Below, one piece after another: positions 4,843 through 8,397 of a stretch of DNA of 26,749 nucleotides (the first letter of the stretch is position 1; every line of letters begins with the position of its first letter). The stretch is from Oscillospiraceae bacterium (lineage in GTDB: Bacteria; Bacillota; Clostridia; Oscillospirales; Oscillospiraceae): positions 1-26,749 of the forward strand of contig JAGAMQ010000047.1 in the NCBI GenBank assembly GCA_017624645.1, given 5' to 3'. Made by a program: the position numbers and the translations under genes. Under the pieces are notes generated by a model. That model made no database searches. It was not told the origin of the DNA and saw only the letters and a list, made by a program, of their open reading frames with translations.

Positions 4843-4880
4843 TACCGCCTGACGAATCTTCGTCAGGCGGTAAATTTTTT
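4843..4880 (+). terminator. Rho-independent terminator of the foldase gene
   Basis: A 14-bp perfect stem (4843-4856 with 4859-4872) with a 2-base centre is followed by AATTTTTT. It lies between convergent genes and may also slow transcription from the other side, although the minus-strand exit is not T-rich. Confidence 0.85.
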
Positions 4881-6513
4881 AAAGAAGCTGGGCTGCCTCT
4901 TTTTTTCTTTTTAAATAGAAGTATGCCCCGGCGGCGCCGGCAAAGATGACGGCTTCTGCAATGCACAGGATCCACCAGGGGAAATCCTTTCGGGCCTCCC
5001 GGCAGATGGGACAATCCTCATCGGATTCATAGGTTTCGCCACATTCACAGATGTGACTGTGGGCACCGTCAAAATGCTCATGGGGAAGAGCCGGTGCCAA
5101 CTCATAAGCGCAATCGGTGCAAAGCTGGGGGGTTGCTGCAGTGGCTGCCGCACCGGGGGTATGGCTGCCGGTCATTGCCTTTTCGCCGCAGCTCTTGCAA
5201 ATCTGCCAGTGCCCCTGAGGGTCGGTGATCCAGTTTCCGTCGGGATCGTGGGGGGCGGTGCGTTCTGCGGAGCAGATGGTGCATTGGCTTTGACAATTGG
5301 TTTCGTAGGTATGTTCTGTGTAATTACATTTCTGATCGCAAAGGCTGCAGTTGTTCCAATGTCCCTTGGAATCATACATCCAGCCTTCGTTCAATTCGTG
5401 CTCATGATCTGTGCGGATTTGCAGGACCCGGTTGCAGACGGTGCAGATCTGATCGGTGGTAGCGGTGGCGGCAGGACCGGGAACGTGATCCTGCGAATCC
5501 TTGGTGAAGTTACAGTCCTTGCAGCCTGTAAAATGGACGGTTTCGTTGTGGAGCAGCTCTTTTGCAAGGTTATGAGACTTTGTTTCTTCTTTTTTACAGA
5601 CGGTGCAGCTGTGGGTGTGGGAATTCTCGTCCACAGATTCCCAGGGTGTAAAGCTGTGGGCAGCCTTGGGAATAATATCTTCTTTGGTAGCAGAGCAGTT
5701 TTTACAGGTCAGGGTTTTGCTGCCGGTTTCCTGACAGGTGGCAGCTTTGTTCACTTTTCCTTTGTTCCAATTGTGATTTAGGGTGGATTTTACCTGACAT
5801 ACGGTACATACGGCAGTGTGACTTTTGTCATTCAAATTGGCGTAGGAACTGTACTTATGATCGTTGGTCTTTTCCAACACTTCGCTTTTTTCTGCCTTAC
5901 AGCCGGAGCATACAAACTTCTTGGATCCGGTTTCTTTACAGGTGGCAGCTTTTATAACGGTGCCTGCGTCCCATGTGTGGTTCTCTTTCTTTTTCTCCCC
6001 ACAGATGGAGCAGGTGCTTTCGTGCTGACTGTCGCTGACTTTTGTGCAATTCTTGAAATCGTGACGGCAGGAGATAGTTAGAGTAGTACCGCTGACAGAA
6101 CAACTGATTTTGCCCGCTGCGCTGTCAAGATTGCCACTGCCGGAAATGGATGTGCTGCCGAATTTGGCATCGGATTTGACTTTGAATTTAAAAGTGAAGA
6201 TAGTGCCGGATACAGCTTTATCCGTTTCCAAGGCGAATACACCGCCTCCGGAGTTGACATTGCTGGTTGCAGCACCGCTGACATTGCAGCTGCCACCCTC
6301 GTAGGAAAGGATACTGCTGTCGTATTTCAGCACGATACCGCCGTTACTCACCGCAGAGCCGTTGCTGAGTTTAACAGTGACGGTAACATTATCCCCCCGG
6401 GAAACAGTGCCGGAGGATACACCGATGTGCATTTGTGCCGAAGCCGCGTAGGCGGGAAGAGCAAGACAGAACAGCAGCATAAGGGCGAAAAGACTTAAGA
6501 TAAATTTTTTCAT
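4879..6513 (-). CDS. Membrane-anchored surface protein with cohesin-like domain and Cys/His-rich array
   Basis: The 544-aa protein has a signal peptide (about 1-23, AYA cleavage). Residues 27-148 form a beta-rich domain that reads as a cohesin: MHIGVSSGTVSRGDNVTV, the GGIVLKYDSSILSYEGG core, and IFTFKFKVK. Residues 150-506 contain about a dozen CxxC pairs mixed with histidines. One unit is repeated at about 179-212 and 247-280 (AATCxETGSK...C-x2-C). A transmembrane helix (about 512-533) and a KRKK tail anchor the C-terminus, so the cohesin-like domain should project outward. The start has AGGAG 7 nt upstream, and the gene begins 15 nt after the stop of the dockerin-bearing hydrolase. Cohesins bind dockerins in a calcium-dependent way, so this is the likely receptor for its neighbour. 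Metal binding by the CxxC array is inferred. The cohesin assignment comes from sequence pattern only. Confidence 0.75.
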   Translation of the reverse strand: MKKFILSLFALMLLFCLALPAYAASAQMHIGVSSGTVSRGDNVTVTVKLSNGSAVSNGGIVLKYDSSILSYEGGSCNVSGAATSNVNSGGGVFALETDKAVSGTIFTFKFKVKSDAKFGSTSISGSGNLDSAAGKISCSVSGTTLTISCRHDFKNCTKVSDSQHESTCSICGEKKKENHTWDAGTVIKAATCKETGSKKFVCSGCKAEKSEVLEKTNDHKYSSYANLNDKSHTAVCTVCQVKSTLNHNWNKGKVNKAATCQETGSKTLTCKNCSATKEDIIPKAAHSFTPWESVDENSHTHSCTVCKKEETKSHNLAKELLHNETVHFTGCKDCNFTKDSQDHVPGPAATATTDQICTVCNRVLQIRTDHEHELNEGWMYDSKGHWNNCSLCDQKCNYTEHTYETNCQSQCTICSAERTAPHDPDGNWITDPQGHWQICKSCGEKAMTGSHTPGAAATAATPQLCTDCAYELAPALPHEHFDGAHSHICECGETYESDEDCPICREARKDFPWWILCIAEAVIFAGAAGAYFYLKRKKEAAQLL

Positions 6514-6528
6514 TATGTTTCTCCTGTG

Positions 6529-8397
6529 TTACGAACCGGAAGGAAGATCTAGAGAATATTCATACGGGAAATTTACATGCCATAGAATCTTGATTACATC
6601 ATCCCGGTTCACCTTGTTGTCTGAGGTGTAGTCAGCCGGAACGGCAATAGGGTGTTCACCAGGGAAATTGATGTGCCACAAAAGCTTAATTACATCGTCC
6701 CGGTTTACTTTCTTGTCCTCATTGATATCACCGGGAATGTAGGGAACAATGTGCACGGGGTAGGTGGCAGACTGCTCTTGATAGGTAACGGTTACGGTGA
6801 GATCTGCCAGTTTCTGAGAAGAAAATCCAGATGTGGTAAAACCGCTGCGGATATTGTGGCCGGAACCGTCGGAGTAAAGAACCTTCAGGATCAAGCCCTC
6901 TGTATCCAGTTCTTCATTCAGAAGGAAATACCGGCGTATGGGCATTTGATGGATGGACAGCTGGGATACGGCAGCAGTGCTTTCTTTCCACACAGCATAG
7001 AGTTTTACGTCCTGACTGCTTGACAGCGTATCCTTCTTAACATATTCCACGAATCTTCCACTGGGGTCGGCAGTCCATCCGAGGAAATCAAACCCTTTCC
7101 GTACAGGCACGGTATCCGAGATGGTGGTAGGTTCTCCCTTGGTCTGTATTTGGGGATTTGGTCCGCCGGTTCCGCCTTTGCAGTCATAGGTTAGCTGATA
7201 GGTTCCCCGAACAGAGAAAAAGACCTCGCTGGGCTGGGAACATCCCGTTCTGTTTCCGGCAACGATCTGCGCAGTATATTCACCGATCTGTGCTTTTTTG
7301 ATAACGAATCTCGTTTCGGTGGTTTTGGTTTCTGTTATCATCTTTTCGTCTTTATAAATACGGAGCAGAAATTCTTCCGTATTTGCAGGCTTGCTCCAGT
7401 TAACGATCACATCGCTGTCAACACGGTAAATGTACTTTTCGGTGGAAATTTCCGGTGCTTGGGGCGCCGGATAGTAAGCTTTTAGATACTTGGAAAGCAC
7501 ATGCCCCCGGAGGTTGTCATATTCAATACAGGCAAAGCCGCCGGCCATGCCGTGGACATACACAACCATGCCGTCGCCGATGTAGCCAAGGCGGGTTTTG
7601 TCGGTGACATTGTTGGTATGCCCGGGGCGTACACTGGCGACACCGTCCGGAATCTGACAAAGATAATAGCCTGCAGAAGCTTCCGAGCATCCGCAAGAGA
7701 AGCATTGCTTGCAACCGCTGACACAAACCGTATTTCCGGTATAGTGCATGGCATTGCATTTGCTGCATTGATAGTAGGTTCGGTGAGGGTGGGCGTTCTC
7801 CTGCTTAAAGACAAATTCGTGCGCCTTGTCGCCTCCCTTATAGGCAGGGGAGGCAAACTTGAACCCGGATAACTTTCTTTTGTTGGAAATGACACAGTAA
7901 CCCTCGGTGCTGTGATTGGCATTGCTGTTGCCCTCAATGGTGTAGAAGTAGTCACCCTCCACATAGTACACAAGACCCACGTGGGTATTGCCGGTTGTAA
8001 AAAACAGGTCGCCGGGAGAGGGTGTCTTTTGGTTGCTGTAGAAGGTTTTGATTCCAAAATAACCGCTTCTGGGGTCTGCCTTTGCGCTACGCTTCAGCAC
8101 GTCTGTGGGGATGTCTGCCTGTCTTGCGCACCAAGTCACAAACATGGCACACCAGGGATTATAGGGAAGGCCGTACCATGTGCCGTATTTGGTGTCGTTG
8201 TTTTTTCCCGCTTCCTGATACCCCAACTGGGTCAGGGCAACACCGATAATATCCTTGCGCTGGTCGCCGGTATTTACATATGTATTTTCATGCTCCGGCA
8301 TGGCAGCGCCGGCACTTGGCGTCAATTGGGGCAAACAGGAAAGAATGGCAGCTGCACACAGTACAACTGCCAGAATACGCTTTGTAATTCTGTGCAT
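6529..8397 (-). CDS. Secreted CHAP-type peptidoglycan hydrolase with C-terminal dockerin
   Basis: The 622-aa protein probably cleaves peptidoglycan cross-bridges or amide bonds. A signal peptide occupies about 1-31. The CHAP/NlpC-like catalytic domain is at about 45-180, with C83 in NPWCAMFVTWC, H139 in GNTHVGLVYYVEG, and E155/N157 in TIEGNSN. A short Cys-rich segment follows (about 211-237), then an SH3-like region (246-307), an Fn3-like region (313-396), a Flg_new/InlB B-type repeat (398-470, ending KLYAVW) and a bacterial Ig-like domain (478-550). The C-terminal type I dockerin (553-615) has two calcium loops: D557, N559, D561, N565, D568 and D589, T591, D593, N597, D600. The start at 8397 precedes the signal peptide and has CGGAGTG upstream; the frame upstream to 8472 overlaps the promoter. 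It is the first gene of a two-gene operon with the cohesin-like protein. Confidence 0.88.
   Translation of the reverse strand: MHRITKRILAVVLCAAAILSCLPQLTPSAGAAMPEHENTYVNTGDQRKDIIGVALTQLGYQEAGKNNDTKYGTWYGLPYNPWCAMFVTWCARQADIPTDVLKRSAKADPRSGYFGIKTFYSNQKTPSPGDLFFTTGNTHVGLVYYVEGDYFYTIEGNSNANHSTEGYCVISNKRKLSGFKFASPAYKGGDKAHEFVFKQENAHPHRTYYQCSKCNAMHYTGNTVCVSGCKQCFSCGCSEASAGYYLCQIPDGVASVRPGHTNNVTDKTRLGYIGDGMVVYVHGMAGGFACIEYDNLRGHVLSKYLKAYYPAPQAPEISTEKYIYRVDSDVIVNWSKPANTEEFLLRIYKDEKMITETKTTETRFVIKKAQIGEYTAQIVAGNRTGCSQPSEVFFSVRGTYQLTYDCKGGTGGPNPQIQTKGEPTTISDTVPVRKGFDFLGWTADPSGRFVEYVKKDTLSSSQDVKLYAVWKESTAAVSQLSIHQMPIRRYFLLNEELDTEGLILKVLYSDGSGHNIRSGFTTSGFSSQKLADLTVTVTYQEQSATYPVHIVPYIPGDINEDKKVNRDDVIKLLWHINFPGEHPIAVPADYTSDNKVNRDDVIKILWHVNFPYEYSLDLPSGS

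Follow-up and report, generated by a model that had tools for sequence, protein, structure and literature searches.

A putative cohesin–dockerin tether for a single cell-wall hydrolase, encoded by two neighbouring genes of an Oscillospiraceae bacterium

Introduction

Cohesin–dockerin pairing is known chiefly as the glue of cellulosomes. Contig JAGAMQ010000047.1 of an Oscillospiraceae bacterium (assembly GCA_017624645.1; 26,749 nucleotides, referred to below as the window) encodes a dockerin-bearing protein with a predicted cell-wall hydrolase domain (gene B), followed directly by a predicted membrane-anchored protein with a single cohesin (gene A). This locus raises the question whether an enzyme and its own surface receptor can be encoded as a unit that functions outside a cellulosome. 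From domain composition, recurrence in related genomes and covariation of the two modules we conclude that genes B and A are probably a dedicated pair for tethering one enzyme to the cell surface without a cellulosome. Because the sequences of plug (dockerin) and socket (cohesin) change together from unit to unit, each such pair likely holds one enzyme at the surface.

Results

The two genes and their modules

Both genes lie on the minus strand. Gene B (positions 6529..8397) encodes a putatively secreted protein of 622 amino acids. A signal peptide assigned by eye (residues ~1–31, 8305..8397) is followed by a CHAP domain (residues 77–157, 7927..8169), which scored 36.5 bits against PF05257 (cut-off 26). 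The WC, HVG and EGN motifs of this domain are found in the contexts NPWCAMFV, THVGLVYY and IEGN, and we take their cysteine and histidine to be the catalytic residues. A Flg_new (List_Bact_rpt) repeat (residues 400–469, 6991..7200) and a Big_3 Ig-like domain (residues 495–549, 6751..6915) lead to the C-terminal dockerin (6550..6735). The gap of 15 nt between the genes (6514..6528) carries an AGGAG sequence resembling a ribosome-binding site ahead of gene A (4879..6513, 544 amino acids). Gene A comprises a signal peptide assigned by eye (residues ~1–24, 6442..6513), the cohesin (residues 29–148, 6070..6429), a cysteine-rich stalk with 12 CxxC motifs (4999..6066) and, at the C-terminus, a hydrophobic helix followed by a basic tail, by eye a putative membrane anchor (4915..4983). 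The stalk matched no Pfam family, and no LPXTG sortase motif was found in the gene A sequence. A profile of the stalk-bearing gene A and its paralogue matched 553 of 7995 scored protein-database candidates. The arrangement of the two genes is as described in an initial annotation of this DNA.

That annotation had also read residues 25–148 of gene A as a cohesin, and profile and fold searches agree. Residues 29–134 scored 37.5 bits against PF00963 (curated cut-off 24.1). A structure-match search returned the cohesin β-sandwich fold for residues 25–148, with cohesins as the best fold matches. These include PDB entries 4dh2 and 3ul4, which we take to be the OlpC-Doc435 and OlpA-Doc918 complexes of C. 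thermocellum, as well as 2vo8, 2jh2 and 2xdh, non-cellulosomal cohesins of Clostridium perfringens and Archaeoglobus. The cohesin of 2vo8 sits in a glycoside hydrolase, whereas that of gene A heads a membrane-anchored stalk protein. With cohesins as the top matches in both the hidden Markov model and the fold searches, another Ig-like fold is disfavoured. Matches of full-length gene A to antibody chains in a phmmer search of the PDB (best E 7e-4) were dismissed because they cover residues ~1–54, i.e. the leader and first strand; NCBIfam matches (ExtJ and others) were dismissed as lying under their cut-offs.

The C-terminus of gene B contains two nearly identical loop–helix repeats, NRDDVIKLLWHINFP and NRDDVIKILWHVNFP. 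Both calcium loops are present (DINEDKKVNRDD and DYTSDNKVNRDD), the second with a threonine at position 3, and an AlphaFold model of the region shows helices at 22–33 and 54–65. A profile of 18 dockerins of the same class, the window's included, matched the solved dockerins 8x39 (9e-9), 1daq (8e-8) and 2mte (1e-7). Gene B scored 110 bits against the class profile, of which its own sequence is one of the seeds. We assign the tail of gene B as a dockerin because of the two calcium loops, the match of the class profile to solved dockerins and the two modelled helices.

A second pair in the same genome

The assembly of the window's own genome (G000) consists of 190 contigs and is 68% complete, and all genome-wide negative results are limited to it. 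A scan with PF00963 located two cohesin genes, one being gene A and the other lying on contig C160. The PF00404 scan found one dockerin gene, also on C160, and missed that of the window; the class dockerin and cohesin profiles added no gene in the 68%-complete genome. A spacer of 10 nt separates the C160 cohesin gene from the dockerin gene upstream of it, whose product combines a GH24 lysozyme domain with SH3-like repeats (26.6 bits, cut-off 27) and with a dockerin (50.8 bits). The stalks of the two anchors are 68% identical, whereas identity is 29% between the cohesins and 37% between the dockerins. By these scans the genome therefore holds two pairs on similar stalks; both include a wall-hydrolase domain, but plug and socket differ between them. 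In this 68%-complete genome we found no multi-cohesin scaffoldin, since the two cohesin matches both fall in single-cohesin genes, and no dockerin on a plant-polysaccharide enzyme, since both dockerin genes carry CHAP or GH24. The initial annotation had allowed for a genome of many dockerins served by a scaffoldin elsewhere; the 68%-complete assembly shows one other dockerin gene, beside one other cohesin gene.

Recurrence of the two-gene unit

In 101 evenly drawn genomes of the same genus, Pfam cohesin matches occurred in 43 and dockerin matches in 52. Dockerin positions relative to cohesins were taken among the matches listed, and weak dockerins such as the window's escape Pfam. Among these matches, at least 30 of 99 cohesins are preceded by a dockerin that is encoded on the same strand and ends no more than 1 kb away. 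For the others, again among the matches listed, the dockerin lies just downstream in 13 cases (partly within one cohesin–dockerin protein), on the opposite strand in 4, at 1–5 kb in 26 and beyond 5 kb in 4; the contigs of the remaining 22 carry no listed dockerin. Anchor genes were inspected for 92 of the 99 cohesin matches, which were placed in 91 genes.

For the class of the window, profiles A3 (18 dockerins) and A4 (17 cohesins) were built with adjacent pairs as seeds and then applied to 136 genomes of the genus. Thresholds were set by us at 70 bits for dockerins and 80 bits for cohesins; around the latter the scores drop from 81.5 to 69.0, which is not a wide gap. This yielded 51 class dockerins in 27 genomes (a dockerin in two pieces, G074:C63, 52.9 bits, was left out of the count) and 30 class cohesins in 24 genomes. 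A class dockerin ends 69–325 nt upstream of 29 of the 30 class cohesins. The profile seeds are adjacent by construction; among the 13 cohesins outside the A4 seeds, 12 are adjacent to a class dockerin (one of the 12, L051, supplied a dockerin seed). Exactly one class dockerin and one class cohesin are present in 17 of the 27 class-holding genomes, including four that are at least 90% complete (G054, G011, G096 and G097); some of the 17 hold dockerins or cohesins of other classes. The survey of related genomes suggested at the outset thus shows that the pair recurs. It supports the notion of a one-enzyme plug-and-socket, but not as something unique to the window: there are about 30 class pairs in the genus, pairs of other classes, and pairs in other families of the order.

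One genome, G074 (L193–L197; 75% complete), holds 15 class dockerins and no class cohesin above 80 bits. Either its class cohesin lies in the missing part, or a different partner is used.

At the level of the order, the class cohesin profile (E 1e-12) found matches in 32 of 394 genomes and 25 of 168 genera. We inspected 20 of the 58 matches listed, and 8 of these 20 loci have a dockerin gene, as recognised by a motif pattern of our own, directly upstream. A locus search among named genomes returned none with a single protein, and one distant locus with a two-row alignment.

Cargo and anchors

Pfam assigns a hydrolase domain to the cargo of 20 of the 29 class pairs: 17 have GH24 (Phage_lysozyme) and 3 have CHAP. 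LRR_5 cargo occurs in two of the 29 and a transglutaminase-like domain in one; L182 is GH24-like by tblastn, and L097, L188 and L191 have no enzyme family in Pfam. The Pfam cargo scan left out L102, L108 and L182 of the class and L093 of another class. Hydrolase cargo, as annotated for the window, therefore holds there and for most class pairs, but LRR, transglutaminase-like and unassigned cargos occur as well. An E..D..T/S pattern, presumably the GH24 motif, is kept in all 17 domains examined (16 of the class and C160; L183 left out). The cargo of other classes comprises GH24 (C160), LRR (L050), a sub-threshold CHAP (L049), a cohesin–dockerin protein (L039), a CBM_X2 protein (L040), a Big_2 protein (L046) and a dockerin match alone (L045 and L047). 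None of nine order-level proteins scanned, the eight paired ones (L230 truncated at the end of its contig) plus one more, matched GH24 or CHAP at E 0.001; L235 carries a sub-threshold NlpC/P60 domain. The unit of two genes is thus widely distributed; within our sample, its use for GH24 or CHAP proteins is confined to the window's genus.

Locus L051 (G061:C20) contains tandem class pairs, one with an LRR protein and one with a transglutaminase-like protein. At some anchor C-termini (L040, L049, L051, L097) a PxTGD motif precedes the hydrophobic helix and resembles a sortase signal. The mode of anchoring thus seems to vary between anchors, the window's apparently ending in a plain helix.

Two-fold symmetry of the dockerin

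In the class dockerins (n = 27) the two halves agree at helix positions 10, 11, 13–15, 18 and 20–22, with identities of 0.78–1.00 within a dockerin and 0.15–0.60 between dockerins. Position 18 is equal in both halves in all 27. At loop positions 2–7 the identity within dockerins (0.11–0.44) is near the background between them (0.10–0.48). For thirteen chosen variable positions the mean half-to-half identity was 0.869, compared to 0.424 for the null (null maximum 0.544). Gene conversion as the source of this symmetry is disfavoured because the loop positions stay close to background and, of 200 code residues identical between the halves, 82 use different codons. Some homogenisation of the halves is possible, with a codon identity of 0.59 against 0.45 expected from usage. 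Since matching helix positions are offered by either repeat, two docking orientations (a dual binding mode) are likely.

Covariation of plug and socket

Pairwise dockerin distances correlate with those of the neighbouring cohesins at r = 0.694 (n = 35; 0 of 10000 permutations as high). This set holds 35 of 37 pairs; L045 and L183, in which the dockerin pattern failed, were left out. An earlier, smaller set gave r = 0.685 (n = 26; 0 of 20000 permutations as high), and the class pairs alone gave 0.589 (n = 27). Because linked genes can correlate through shared ancestry, the GH24 pairs (n = 17) were taken as a control. Here the dockerin correlates with the neighbouring cohesin at 0.634 and with the GH24 domain of its own protein at 0.158 (p 0.12); the partial dockerin–cohesin correlation given GH24 is 0.624. 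In a set with stalks (n = 30) the dockerin–cohesin correlation of 0.700 becomes 0.603 given the stalk.

The six symmetric positions (10, 11, 14, 18, 21 and 22) correlate with the cohesin at r = 0.546, compared to 0.112 (p 0.064) for loop positions 2–7. After removal of near duplicates (n = 23) the values are 0.505 and 0.070. The best-tracking cohesin columns correspond to residues 68, 36, 33, 119 and 34 of the window fragment. Residues 33–36 presumably adjoin the strand that carries Asn37 and Asp39 in the CipA cohesin of C. thermocellum. The C160 pair (GH24) and the L050 pair (LRR) are 81% identical in the dockerin, 63% in the cohesin and 38% in the stalk, and differ in cargo. To judge from this example, plug and socket move together, cargo and stalk aside.

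Discussion

Proposed mechanism

The predicted peptidoglycan hydrolase B would be exported, fold with calcium and be caught by the cohesin of A, the anchor encoded by the next gene. Both proteins start with what looks like an export signal, and A ends in what looks like a membrane helix. The contact would involve helix positions such as 10, 11, 14, 18, 21 and 22 of either repeat, as the covariation suggests. The stalk would set the reach of the enzyme from the membrane, so that during growth or division the tethered hydrolase would make local cuts in the wall of its own cell and would not be lost to the medium. The two hydrolases of the genome (CHAP and GH24) would be held on separate, non-crossing pairs with closely similar stalks. 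We infer from the sequences that dockerin and cohesin bind each other, that binding depends on calcium, that the CHAP domain (and the GH24 domain of relatives) acts on the cell's own wall, and that the pairs do not cross-talk.

In a wider sense, we lean slightly towards the idea that the cohesin–dockerin module outside the cellulosome is a diversifying lock-and-key cassette, with a private specificity for each unit and a code kept symmetric by selection even with a single enzyme to each anchor, so that several hydrolases can be tethered side by side on similar stalks without cross-talk. Here it would serve as a private tether for cell-wall hydrolases, and such pairs could supply orthogonal connectors for protein engineering.

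Alternative explanations

The tethered hydrolase might face outwards and cut the walls of neighbours or wall debris, in predation or foraging, which we consider unlikely. GH24 and CHAP are frequent in phage and bacterial lysins, and the LRR and other cargos in genus and order that do not look like enzymes would suit a general display device. The anchor of gene A, however, resembles a membrane helix and not a wall-linked or S-layer anchor, which would place the enzyme beneath or inside the wall of its own cell. It is less likely still that the membrane cohesin acts as a leash or brake that restrains autolysis by the hydrolase and does not aim the enzyme. The order of one cohesin behind one dockerin and the predominance of hydrolases in the cargo (by Pfam, 20 of the 29 class pairs) would fit such a role, but to our knowledge blocking of catalytic domains is not a known property of cohesins, and LRR proteins, a non-hydrolase cargo, use the same type of pair.

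Several results weigh against a dedicated, mutually binding pair. We modelled the two modules as a single read-through chain comprising the gene B dockerin, the gene B stop, the gene A signal peptide and the gene A cohesin. Neither of two AlphaFold models of this chain gave a confident interface (model 1: 49 rows, predicted local distance difference test 90.9, predicted template-modelling score 0.60; model 2: 12 rows, 82.5 and 0.52). This lack of a confident interface could stem from the signal-peptide helix included in the chain and from the two-fold symmetry; the models do not count as support for docking, nor do they exclude it. The gene B dockerin scored 12.9 bits (E 0.14) against PF00404, below the cut-off of 22.9; dockerins of the same class partly pass this cut-off (L100, 29.3 bits; L119, 27.3 bits) and partly fail. 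The type I dockerin of the initial annotation is carried by its calcium loops, the class profile and the modelled helices, with a Pfam score under the cut-off. Class dockerins without an adjacent class cohesin amount to 22 of 51 (15 in G074, 4 in the 58%-complete G083 and one each in G022, G086 and G077), and one-to-one pairing is therefore not universal. Single cohesin columns track the dockerin code weakly (0.37–0.30, significance not tested). The permutation tests ignore phylogeny, and neighbours have common ancestry. The cohesin also correlates with the upstream GH24 domain (0.334, p 0.002, n = 17) and with the stalk (0.504), and the dockerin with the stalk of the next gene (0.486, n = 30). 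Mutual binding of B and A, as first supposed, is thus favoured by recurrence and by covariation at the recognition residues, but not by the modelled interface.

The missing interface and the correlations with stalk and GH24 would be expected if the neighbours did not bind and were co-inherited surface genes, their covariation reflecting shared ancestry. We regard this as improbable: the correlation of GH24-pair dockerins with the cohesin of the next gene is four times that with the catalytic domain of their own protein, and the class signal is restricted to the symmetric helix positions. There is similarly little to recommend a remnant of a cellulosome-like network, with cross-binding and larger scaffoldins in the missing third of the assembly, which the 68% completeness, the cohesin–dockerin proteins and dockerin-rich members of the genus (G010 with 20 dockerins and 8 cohesins, G074 with 15 class dockerins) would permit, but against which stand the 17 of 27 class genomes with one dockerin and one cohesin of the class, four of them at least 90% complete, and the divergence of the genome's own two pairs at the recognition modules (dockerin 37%, cohesin 29%) compared to the stalk (68%).

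Comparison with known systems

The dedicated tethering pair that we favour has its closest counterpart in R. flavefaciens RflaF_05439, which contains two NlpC/P60 modules and an X-dockerin and is said, from its authors' unpublished results, to bind the ScaE cohesin (PMC3573020). Common to both are peptidoglycan-peptidase-like modules, a dockerin and the cohesin of a cell-surface anchor. RflaF_05439 differs in its X-dockerin, in the use of a common cellulosome anchor with a sortase signal, and in belonging to an organism with more than 220 dockerin proteins; the available text of that paper describes no two-gene unit (PMC3573020). In the window's genome each hydrolase has its own adjacent anchor, in the window ending in an apparently plain membrane helix, and the 68%-complete assembly showed no cellulosome. 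Gene A shares with ScaE the single cohesin on a surface-anchored protein, but it is without LPXTG, and the gene B dockerin follows a Big_3 domain and is not an X-dockerin.

The dockerins by which C. thermocellum recruits single enzymes to its surface are reported to have a single binding mode, and the dual mode was proposed to relieve crowding in cellulosomes (PMC5429695). OlpC-Doc435 and OlpA-Doc918 thus differ from the window's class, whose dockerins are symmetric at the presumed recognition residues; the available text mentions neither a peptidoglycan-hydrolase cargo nor gene adjacency (PMC5429695). If true, the lock-and-key cassette would contradict the crowding proposal. Another account states that definitive evidence of the dual mode being under selection is lacking, and that dual modes exist beyond enzyme recruitment (PMC12484212). 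A GH24 protein (group 4a) of R. flavefaciens FD-1 bears one of 222 dockerin sequences; it is one entry in a large cellulosome inventory, and a dedicated neighbouring anchor is not mentioned in the available text (PMC2930009). In R. albus a single cohesin is thought likely to anchor isolated dockerin enzymes at the surface (PMC6118326), i.e. one cohesin for many dockerins, compared to one for one in the window's unit. By title or abstract we found no dedicated hydrolase–dockerin/cohesin–anchor gene pairs in the literature, subscription papers being mostly outside the coverage.

Further observations

A hairpin of 13 pairs between gene A and the convergent gene (4843..4872) is terminator-like on both strands. 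The region contains 7 terminator-like hairpin sites (4.7 expected); a promoter scan was uninformative (5 sites, 4.3 expected). Six GH24 pairs (L120, L127, L134, L179, L180 and L184) lie near a gene that we take to encode a ribosomal protein S9-like product, which suggests a shared chromosomal site. From its second residue on, the anchor of pair L092 of the same genus is identical to a database protein (P0030) that NCBI attributes to an Oscillospiraceae bacterium. In four genomes (L087, L116, L125 and L132) the arrangement is divergent: a cohesin gene whose product has a hydrophobic helix at its C-terminus faces away from a partner gene of another dockerin class, with dockerin-like repeats near the N-terminus (from residue ~96–103). 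In G010, where the matches total 20 dockerins and 8 cohesins, the frames at L098, L105, L117 and L118 are ~1800–1970 amino acids long, open at the end of the stretch, and combine a dockerin (~residues 630–690) and a cohesin (~residues 1670–1690) in one frame. The end of a related frame, L109, resembles by eye an S-layer homology repeat.

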